Below the pieces are notes generated by a model. It did no database searches. It worked only from the letters and a program-made list of their open reading frames with translations, and was not told the origin of the DNA. Shown here in pieces: positions 3,759 through 9,493 of a stretch of DNA of 21,051 nt. A program made the translations under genes and the position numbers. The first letter of the stretch is position 1, and each line of letters starts with the position of its first letter. Location of the stretch: positions 1-21,051 of the IMG/VR virus record IMGVR_UViG_3300042392_001083. The stretch is one strand, 5' to 3'. This DNA is from a virus.

Positions 3759-4700
3759 ATGTCGTATAACGTATGGACAAAGAGATTTGCTGACAATCCA
3801 GAACTGATTGGAGAATCGCAAGCAAAGTACATCAAGCGAATAGCTGAATTGTACAAGACAACGGAATCAAGTGTGCGAGCAAAGTATCATATGCACGTCA
3901 GAAAGAAGAAATCAAATACTAATGATAGCTTTTTTCACAACTTGCCAAAGTCATCTGCAACAGAAAAACACTTCTTTCAAATCGAAGGAAAGAGAGTGCT
4001 TTGTTTATACGATGTTCACGTTCCCTACCACGATGTCAAAGCGTTGCATTGCGCCATAAATGAAGGCTTGAAAAGAAAGTGCGACACCATATTCTTGGGT
4101 GGTGATTGCGTTGATGCTTATGAGTTGAGCAGATTCGAAAAGGACAAGAGAAAAAGAAGCTGGAAGGATGAGATACAACTCACAAAACAATTCTTTTCAT
4201 TCTTGCGATACAAATTTCCATCTGCAAAAATATATTATCTGTATGGAAATCACGACTTGAGATATCAAGCATACATCAGAAAAAATGCAAGTGCATTGGA
4301 TGGTATTGAAGCATTCGACTTCAAGAATTTATTTGACTTTGAAAGATTCCAGATAACAGAGATTGACCAATTCGCTCACGCGAAATACAAAGGATTATCG
4401 CTTGTTCACGGACACGAATGGGGTGGTAGTGTGTTTTCACCAGTCAATGTAGCACGAGGTCTTTATACACGAGCAAAGGCATCTGCAATGTGTGGACATT
4501 CACACCAGACATCAGAACATACAGAGAAGGATATCAATGGAAAGATGACAACTTGCTGGAGCGTTGGATGCTTAAGTGAAATCAGACCAGACTACTCGAA
4601 ATTCTCGAAGTATAATCAAGGATTCGCAATCATTGAAAGCAAGGGTGCTGATAAGTATCACGTCACCAATTACAGAATCGAGAACGGAAATATCTTGTAA
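3759..4700 (+). CDS. Metallophosphoesterase (calcineurin-like)
   Basis: A 313-residue protein with the complete calcineurin-like phosphoesterase signature: D85-x-H87 (YDVHVPYHD), GGD around 114, GNHD at 163-166, HGH at 217-219 and GHSH at 246-249. These bind two metal ions. The first ~55 residues are basic and helical (KYIKRIAELYKTTESSVRAKYH, KKK) and look like a helix-turn-helix or DNA-contact segment. The substrate cannot be told from sequence; a nuclease or nucleotide phosphatase role is plausible given the basic N-terminus. It starts 3 bp after the endolysin stop and is probably cotranscribed with the late genes. Confidence 0.85.
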   Translation: MSYNVWTKRFADNPELIGESQAKYIKRIAELYKTTESSVRAKYHMHVRKKKSNTNDSFFHNLPKSSATEKHFFQIEGKRVLCLYDVHVPYHDVKALHCAINEGLKRKCDTIFLGGDCVDAYELSRFEKDKRKRSWKDEIQLTKQFFSFLRYKFPSAKIYYLYGNHDLRYQAYIRKNASALDGIEAFDFKNLFDFERFQITEIDQFAHAKYKGLSLVHGHEWGGSVFSPVNVARGLYTRAKASAMCGHSHQTSEHTEKDINGKMTTCWSVGCLSEIRPDYSKFSKYNQGFAIIESKGADKYHVTNYRIENGNIL

Positions 4701-6588: not shown

Positions 6589-7896
6589 TTATCTTACACC
6601 ATATCTTCTGTAGTTGGGATATAGGTCAAAATATTTTCGCATCATAATCATATCAGCAATGTCTGGAGAAAATCCATTCATTCTCTTTATCTCATCCTTT
6701 GGTGTCACTTGCCTTCTCTTTTCTGTGTTGGCAGTATAATTCCTTACGACTTCCAATTCCTTGATGATATCACTCTTGTATGATTTGCAAATAAACGTGA
6801 TTGAATTATTAGCAATGTCATCTGATATCTTGAAGTAGCATTCACTTTTCAGATTCAAATATATCTCTGGTTCAGTTGACCTACCACCATTGTTGAATGC
6901 TTGACATTTAAGTATTCCAACCACACCAATTCCCAAGCCATCAGCATCGACAACTATATTTGACAATCGAACATTGTGTTGGATAGATAGCTGGCGAATG
7001 TAATCAGCTACTTCATTTGGGTACTTGTGTTCCAGTTTATGAATCTCAAGCAATGTCATACCATCCCACAATCCAATGATTGTTTTATCATTGCCTAAAG
7101 CAGCAATGTCGGCAGTTATGTATTTGGTTTTATTGCCAACTATTTCATCCCTAAAGCAGCGAAGCAAGTCATCATAATGATACAATCTGTCGTTGCTATC
7201 ATCAAAATCCCAGTCACCATCTTTCAATCTTTTTCTGTCACGTTCTGATAGCCTTGATAGCTTGTCGAGATACGATTGTGGTAAGTGTGGATTATCGTCT
7301 GGAAGGGAACGAATGAATGCTCTATCGAATCTCAAGTTACCAGAACGATGTGCATCAAAGAACTCGTTGTAAAGCCATCCTTTGGTCGGATTGCAAGTCA
7401 TCAACCCTTTTGGCTTATCATCTATTAGGTTGTATCGTACACGAGAATCAAGAATCTCAATAGCACGTTTACTCACTTCAGCAACTTCATCGACAAAATA
7501 ATCTGTAATTTCAAGCGAACCAAGTCTTGTGAACTCAACATCACTTGGCATATCTCTCAAGTCCATCAATACAATTTCGCTTCCATTGAAGAACTTGATT
7601 GTCTGTTCTTGCTGGTTATAGGTATAGTGAACATCTTTGATTAGACCAATGTCAACGCATATCTTCCAAAATGTTTTCATCGTTGTCTGCTTCAACTTTT
7701 TCAATTCGCATCTACCTATCAATCCTCTGGTGTTAGCGTACTTCAATCGTCTTGATATCTGCCAAGCACAACCAAGATATGACTTGCCACCACCAGCAGC
7801 ACCACCAAAGAGCAGCAGTTCGCAATCAGTATTGTTGATTGACAAATAACTCAATGCTTCTTGCTGCCTTTGGGTATACTCAAATTGATACATCAA
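6589..7896 (-). CDS. terL: Terminase large subunit
   Basis: A 435-residue packaging motor and nuclease. The ATPase domain has the Walker A GGAAGGGKS at 31-39 and the Walker B acid pair D136-E137 in DYFVDEVAEV, with the coupling-type motif TCNPTKGWLY at 167-176. The nuclease domain shows the acidic residues expected for the RNase H-like fold: D263 (ITADIAALG), D317/D319 (VVDADGLG) and D412/D415 (SPDIADMIM). It threads DNA through the portal and cuts concatemers. Length is typical. It overlaps the upstream winged-helix gene by 4 bp. It lies on the strand opposite to the portal, and about 8.6 kb from the small-subunit candidate at 16524. Confidence 0.95.
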   Translation of the reverse strand: MMYQFEYTQRQQEALSYLSINNTDCELLLFGGAAGGGKSYLGCAWQISRRLKYANTRGLIGRCELKKLKQTTMKTFWKICVDIGLIKDVHYTYNQQEQTIKFFNGSEIVLMDLRDMPSDVEFTRLGSLEITDYFVDEVAEVSKRAIEILDSRVRYNLIDDKPKGLMTCNPTKGWLYNEFFDAHRSGNLRFDRAFIRSLPDDNPHLPQSYLDKLSRLSERDRKRLKDGDWDFDDSNDRLYHYDDLLRCFRDEIVGNKTKYITADIAALGNDKTIIGLWDGMTLLEIHKLEHKYPNEVADYIRQLSIQHNVRLSNIVVDADGLGIGVVGILKCQAFNNGGRSTEPEIYLNLKSECYFKISDDIANNSITFICKSYKSDIIKELEVVRNYTANTEKRRQVTPKDEIKRMNGFSPDIADMIMMRKYFDLYPNYRRYGVR

Positions 7897-8611: not shown

Positions 8612-9493
8612 TTACAATAAACTTTTTTCTATTGCTTGAAAAATCTCAAACGCTAACTGTGGCACTAATGAATTTCCGTATCCTTTGATCGATTCGTTTC
8701 TCCATTTAGAAAAGGTAATTCCGTCCAATTCGGTGGGAAGCCCATCATCTCTGCCACAAATCGGGGATTGAGTTGGGAAGTTTTTCCAAGTTGCGCGAAT
8801 GCATCTGGCAGACTGTTGGTGTGATTTCTTCCACATCGTTCCAGCCGTTCTTCTGTATGAGAACCTTTCCAATCCCTTGTTGTTAGTGTAGGAAGCATTC
8901 CCATCACTTGAGTCGCAAGGTTTGGCATCGTTGTTCCGTTGGGATATTTCTCCATTCTTTTCTTGAATTTCTCCAAATCTTGCACTTGTTCTATTGCTCT
9001 TGGTGTGAGCAATAAACCAGACCCGGTCTCGTCTGTGTGGCGCACCAACGGCACAAGCTGGAAGTATAAAAGGGATGACTTCGTAGCCTTCATTTGCCAA
9101 GTCAATTTGCACTTCCTCGAACACCATTCCCCCATTCCAATTAACAAGCCCACGAACATTCTCTCCCACAACGAATCTCGGTTCAATCTCTCGTATTGCC
9201 CTAAGCATCTCTGGGAAGAGATGTCGCTCGTCATCTTTCCCAAGTCTTTTTCCAGCGACTGAATATGGTTGGCACGGGAATCCTCCCGTGAGTACATCGA
9301 TTCTTCCTCTGTGAATAGTGAAATCTGTTTTTGTGATATCTTCATAAGAAATTGAATTTGGAAAGTGATATTTTAATACTTGACGAGGGAAGGTCATCCA
9401 TTCGCAATGGAATATGTTTTCCCATCCCATCCATTCAGCAGCCAAATCAAATCCACCTATACCACTAAATAAACTGCCGTGAGTAAGTTTCAT
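8612..9493 (-). CDS. DNA cytosine-C5 methyltransferase
   Basis: A 293-residue methyltransferase with the standard order of motifs: I (SLFSGIGGFDLAAE, S7-E20) for AdoMet binding, IV (GGFPCQPYS, catalytic C74), VI (E111-N112-V113), VIII (HRRDRVWF, R155/R157) and X (GYGNSLVPQLAFEIF, from 271). The segment between VIII and X (about 165-240), where the target-recognition domain sits, is Ser/Asn/Arg-rich and looks unusual. That stretch is shared with a second long open frame, which may explain its composition. The enzyme probably modifies phage DNA against host restriction; no cognate endonuclease gene is visible. It overlaps the next gene upstream by 4 bp (ATGA). Confidence 0.93.
   Translation of the reverse strand: MKLTHGSLFSGIGGFDLAAEWMGWENIFHCEWMTFPRQVLKYHFPNSISYEDITKTDFTIHRGRIDVLTGGFPCQPYSVAGKRLGKDDERHLFPEMLRAIREIEPRFVVGENVRGLVNWNGGMVFEEVQIDLANEGYEVIPFILPACAVGAPHRRDRVWFIAHTKSNRTSARFGEIQEKNGEISQRNNDAKPCDSSDGNASYTNNKGLERFSYRRTAGTMWKKSHQQSARCIRATWKNFPTQSPICGRDDGLPTELDGITFSKWRNESIKGYGNSLVPQLAFEIFQAIEKSLL
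8665..9345 (-). CDS. Nested gene inside the methyltransferase gene, LNPRFVAEMMGFP family
   Basis: On the same strand but a different frame, a 226-codon frame lies wholly within the methyltransferase gene (over its codons 50-276). A second start at 9297 gives a 210-residue protein beginning MYSREDSRANHIQ. It carries features I recall from phage proteins linked to cytosine methyltransferases: SRKCKLTWQMKATKSSLLYF, HTDETGSGLLLTPRA, an LPT-type repeat (GMLPTLTTRDWKGS), then QLNPRFVAEMMGFPPNWTELPF near the end. These look like a true protein family, normally Trp/Pro-rich with TPT/LPTP repeats and an L(N/S)P..VE.(L/M)MG.P..W ending. Length and these motifs argue against a chance frame. Function unknown; expression not shown. 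Confidence 0.62.
   Translation of the reverse strand: MKISQKQISLFTEEESMYSREDSRANHIQSLEKDLGKMTSDISSQRCLGQYERLNRDSLWERMFVGLLIGMGEWCSRKCKLTWQMKATKSSLLYFQLVPLVRHTDETGSGLLLTPRAIEQVQDLEKFKKRMEKYPNGTTMPNLATQVMGMLPTLTTRDWKGSHTEERLERCGRNHTNSLPDAFAQLGKTSQLNPRFVAEMMGFPPNWTELPFLNGETNRSKDTEIH

Follow-up and report, generated by a model that had tools for sequence, protein, structure and literature searches.

A nested reading frame within a phage cytosine methyltransferase gene as the probable second subunit of a split enzyme

Long genes nested on the same strand inside other genes are rare, and few are known with a functional reading for both frames. The stretch of DNA analysed here (the window, 21,051 nucleotides) raises this question directly, as a C5 cytosine methyltransferase (MTase) gene of 293 codons encloses a second open frame of 226 codons: is the nested frame translated into a protein and, if so, what would that protein do beside a methyltransferase encoded by the same nucleotides? 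The window is a phage fragment whose genes run in opposed directions, and no restriction enzyme genes were found among the window neighbours checked with Pfam and PHROGs. The features relevant to this work are the following:

104-2203, portal
3759-4700, metallo-phosphoesterase
6589-7896, minus strand, terminase large subunit
8612..9493, minus strand, outer gene, alpha: C5 cytosine DNA methyltransferase, 293 aa (PF00145, 1.8e-45, profile positions 4-244 of 324)
8615..8707, minus strand, alpha tail KWRNESIKGYGNSLVPQLAFEIFQAI... with motif X (hhalign; alpha coding signature restored)
8665..9345, minus strand, nested gene, beta: 226 aa in the +1 frame of alpha (open frame, synonymous constraint, codon-position tests, phrog_1008 8.9e-18)
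8707..8778, minus strand, motif IX equivalent in the nested frame, SQLNPRFVAEMMGFPPNWTELPFL (aligned at motif IX of ordinary MTases)
8786..8995, minus strand, segment between motifs VIII and IX, i.e., alpha codons 167-236 and the LPTP-type repeats of beta (nested-frame coding signature)
9343..9345, minus strand, ATG start of the nested gene (+1 ATG conservation)

The nested codons begin at position 2 of the MTase codons, that is, in the +1 frame, and the nested ORF lies wholly inside the MTase gene; the third frame of the same strand is rich in stops, and in the +1 frame stops flank the nested ORF with none within it. An earlier note on this DNA had recognised both genes, and their lengths, strand and positions were confirmed, but it took MYSREDSRAN for the nested start, which is in fact an internal, second ATG, 16 codons into an ORF that begins with MKISQKQISLFTEEESMYSREDS / MKISQKQISLFTEEESMYS in the reading of the window. 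The nested stop lies 14 residues beyond ...TELPF.

The +1 open stretch of the window spans 235 codons, a length equalled in none of 2,000 synonymous-codon shuffles (mean 101, maximum 222). In all 111 distinct complete IMG/VR homologs, the +1 frame is open over 183 codons or more, and over 216 or more in all 53 distinct loci among them that were picked by the MTase protein alone; the medians for the other frame were 37-38 codons in the homologs and 37 in the 53 loci. Across 109 of the homologs, the +1 frame accumulated 64 stops against the 769 expected, with a column identity of 0.484 against 0.274 in shuffles. Furthermore, heterozygosity at fourfold sites was about half inside the overlap (0.266) of what it was outside (0.517; p=3e-7), and at alpha codons 241-260, 9 of the 12 scored fourfold sites were invariant across 44-109 sequences. 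The earlier note had proposed that two real proteins share this DNA, with reduced synonymous change in the overlap as the expected trace and stops in the nested frame of close relatives as evidence to the contrary; the halved heterozygosity and the conserved open frame both speak in favour of its proposal. The nested 226-codon frame is real, far beyond chance.

The frame that governs the sequence changes along the gene. At alpha codons 1-48, 50-166 and 263-290, variation is greatest at outer position 3, the pattern of an ordinary gene (p=7e-8, 8e-9 and 3e-5, respectively; for codons 263-290, position 3 exceeds position 1 with p=2.7e-5). At alpha codons 167-236 this pattern flips, with outer position 1, which corresponds to nested position 3, being more variable than outer position 3 (p=1.4e-8 on the outer alignment and 1.5e-9 on the nested alignment); codons 239-262 display the same tendency more weakly (p=0.04, and 0.07 on the nested alignment). 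From this flip it follows that coding is chiefly in the nested frame between motifs VIII and IX, and in the outer frame before and after them. Each of the two proteins must be produced. The earlier note had suspected the second frame of shaping the odd Ser/Asn/Arg-rich region of the MTase, and codons 167-236 indeed carry the codon signature of the nested frame. This segment is likely a target recognition region in beta and a weakly constrained linker in alpha. The first ~65 residues of beta, in turn, carry the codon signature of alpha and may have little function.

With regard to the identity of the two proteins, alpha contains the catalytic GFPCQP (motif IV, PCQ), GENV (motif VI, ENV), motif VIII and an AdoMet-binding fold. 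Its model (pTM 0.70) matched M.HhaI best among PDB structures (Z 18.2), together with M.HaeIII (Z 16.3), and its modelled fold is that of M.HhaI/M.HaeIII; pLDDT was 32-51 over most of the segment between motifs VIII and IX, and the VIII-X region is of low confidence. The alignment of the alpha profile to ordinary MTases with hhalign spans residues 3-169 only, i.e., motifs I-VIII, and the C-terminal tail aligns at motif X (hhalign, E 0.0034 and 1e-4). No motif IX was recognisable in the alpha chain, either in the Pfam match, which ends at position 244 of 324, in the hhalign alignment, which ends at residue 169, or by inspection of frame 0.

The end of beta, LNPRFVAEMMGFPPNWT, aligns at motif IX (RRLTPRECxRLQGFPD) within a 340-column profile of ordinary C5-MTases (E 0.004), and the C-terminal part of the nested profile alone aligned to ordinary MTases at the same motif (E 0.001), these being matches to one short motif with modest E-values. 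Further, the nested family matches the C-termini of actinophage MTases in which this segment is in frame (hhalign, E 3e-9), and PHROG 1008 was matched by 61 of 61 nested homologs; its label, "DNA methyltransferase", probably comes from the outer gene, and the family itself corresponds to the nested or recognition part. Searches of NCBIfam with the nested protein gave no match above chance, and its profile matched no PDB sequence. AlphaFold modelling of beta alone (61 homologs) yielded a mean pLDDT of 51 and a pTM of 0.22. A structure look-up gave weak, unrelated matches only (best Z 4.4), and no fold was assigned.

The motif IX absent from the outer MTase is found in the nested protein, so that the two proteins are most likely subunits of a single enzyme and not unrelated products, a function that had escaped the earlier note. 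Our preferred reading, to which we assign a probability of roughly 0.86, is that the two frames encode the alpha and beta subunits of a single split C5-MTase, with beta carrying motif IX and a probable recognition segment; it builds on the conservation of both coding frames, on the reciprocal way in which the motifs are divided between them, and on the existence of homologous in-frame versions. Alpha would provide the AdoMet-binding and catalytic domain (motifs I-VIII) as well as motif X, and beta, translated in the +1 frame from its own internal ATG, would provide motif IX and, in all likelihood, the target-recognition segment, thereby completing the small DNA-reading domain. We infer that the two proteins would form an active, site-specific complex, an alpha-beta dimer methylating a specific site in phage DNA, and that this methylation would most plausibly shield the DNA from host restriction, protection from restriction being the usual reading of orphan phage MTases. 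The poor model of beta alone speaks against this reading; the folding of a subunit on its partner would explain it, but this is no proof. Also weighing against it are the modest E-values of the short motif IX match, the alpha codon signature over the first ~65 residues of beta, and the lack of a Shine-Dalgarno-like site upstream of the nested ATG in 108 loci, although alpha, too, mostly lacks one (present in 12 of 108).

A programmed +1 frameshift could instead join alpha and the nested frame into one fused methyltransferase, for which there is a precedent in the many actinophages with the same segments in one frame. However, 106 of 109 sequences keep a +1 ATG within alpha codons 44-57, close to where the overlap begins, against 59.5 (maximum 74) in synonymous shuffles, a signal that emerges only when alternative ATG positions are pooled, the Tyr codon under the nested ATG being unremarkable by itself (TAT 78, TAC 22). 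Moreover, the coding signature of alpha resumes past the nested motif IX, at codons 263-290, where motif X is also located, which indicates that translation of the outer frame runs to completion, and a frameshift product would be devoid of motif X. Altogether, we consider a fused product very unlikely.

Similarly, the nested product could be an independent protein unconnected with the methyltransferase, e.g., a homing endonuclease or a regulator, and HNH genes lying out of frame inside actinophage methylase genes have been published (PMC11855218). This reading is highly improbable, as the 61 nested homologs gave no Pfam match beyond chance level, and the nested frame overlaps conserved MTase sequence, not an insertion, and ends in the very motif IX missing from alpha. 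One gene of the HNH kind was seen in Gordonia phage Bibwit (L253:1850-2305), where an annotated HNH endonuclease lies out of frame in an MTase gene, like the published ShiLan element; it is unrelated to the nested subunit.

The earlier note had also called for a search for stand-alone homologs of the nested protein. These do exist, though they were found at one locus only: in Sphingobacterium phlebotomi (L217:4814-5879), an alpha/beta MTase gene is followed by two ORFs of 201 and 175 codons that resemble beta and stand alone, each of which has TPT repeats and ends in a motif IX-like sequence. A search of viral contigs for relatives of one of them returned none, and no second array of free-standing betas was found in 301 genomes from the family of L217. 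From this single example, it is conceivable, if rather doubtful, that beta might be an exchangeable specificity subunit, comparable to HsdS, which sets the target in type I systems, so that one alpha would pair with nested or free-standing betas and reach several target sites. Finally, codon bias and conserved MTase sequence might by themselves have kept the nested frame open, with no functional protein made from it. This view agrees with the N-terminal ~65 nested residues, which evolve as alpha alone predicts, but it is already contradicted by the comparative data (length beyond all shuffles, 64 stops against 769, invariant fourfold sites, the codon signature flip and the free-standing homologs in L217) and is practically untenable.

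The split enzyme that we favour would not be confined to the window. At 80 bacterial loci, a biased set since they were selected with the nested profile, a nested-type frame sits at +1 in an MTase, the outer frame being broken in a few; the same frame was also read at +1 in phages of Paenibacillus, Lacticaseibacillus, Synechococcus, E. coli, Microcystis and Mycobacterium. A pooled count put 323 cases in the +1 frame and 28 in the MTase frame, overlapping loci being counted more than once. Actinophage loci, which were found with a consensus query and then read directly, provide a bridge between the nested and the in-frame layouts. In around 20 of them, e.g., Mycobacterium phage DLane gp65, the catalytic half shares its frame with TPT repeats, with a motif IX-like PEWMMGWPAGWVT and with motif X; in a few (L251, L252, L264, L267 and L270), the TPT/motif IX segment is in the +1 frame. 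A mixed arrangement was seen in Arthrobacter phage MidnightRain (L249:1741-3195), with TPT repeats at +1 and motifs IX and X in the MTase frame. In Bacteroides (L243:1416-2483; also L219 and L220), the outer MTase has a stop after the catalytic half, and the nested frame is open over 353 codons. Occurrence among genomes was patchy, with 13 of 369, 3 of 296 and 25 of 301 in three samples.

The class thus extends to phages of several bacterial phyla and to bacterial genomes, where it likely sits in prophages, and annotations name one frame only, or both frames alike. The record of Paenibacillus phage Bloom has both frames annotated under an identical name, and that of BKO1-TP3 only the outer one. 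In a Porphyromonas phage record (L244:1456-2070), the nested frame is a hypothetical protein and the full outer MTase frame is unannotated. Given such annotations, phage MTases of this class are likely to be mis-cloned, as an alpha expressed without its beta would look dead. On sequence grounds, both frames can be given a reading here, with catalysis in one and DNA recognition probably in the other, and the class offers hundreds of natural examples in which to study a fast-evolving recognition region shared between two overlapping proteins.

No phage MTase with an overlapping subunit gene was found in the literature searched, and two of our observations go beyond anything found written: the codon signature, which appears to put the recognition segment in the nested frame, and the bacterial locus with two free-standing beta copies. 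Compared with known systems, ordinary MTases encode motif IX in frame and have no long +1 frame, the reverse of the window; in 16 such records (RB43 type), the longest +1 stretch was 28-140 codons, and motif IX was found in frame 0 by pattern in 8 of the 16 and, in most others, by eye from the C-termini. Single-chain C5-MTases of actinophages (DLane gp65) share with beta the LPTP/TPT repeats and the motif IX-like ending, but have all segments in the frame of the catalytic half, motif X included. In M.AquI, an alpha/beta C5-MTase of two polypeptides split in the variable region, the small subunit holds motifs IX and X (PMC3404938); the window differs from this arrangement, as its motif X is in the outer frame, and an M.AquI-like split was seen in some loci of actinophages and Streptomyces (L251, L252). 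In M.EcoHK31I, also a C5-MTase of two polypeptides, the larger subunit contains motifs I-VIII and X and the smaller one only motif IX (PMC3404938). The window shares this division of motifs (alpha I-VIII and X, beta IX). M.EaeI is a two-subunit C5-MTase as well, the site of M.EcoHK31I/M.EaeI being YGGCCR. Lee, Kam and Shaw are said to have described, in 1995, the smaller gene of M.EcoHK31I as lying inside the larger one in a different frame, and the small-subunit gene of the window likewise lies inside the large one in another frame. M.EcoHK31I differs in that its recognition segment is predicted in the larger subunit, whereas the codon signature of the window places it in beta, and in that the window gene is a phage gene with no restriction enzyme found among the neighbours checked. 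Since its motif division is the same as that of M.EcoHK31I, the window would belong with a known but obscure two-subunit kind of methyltransferase, here borne by a phage.
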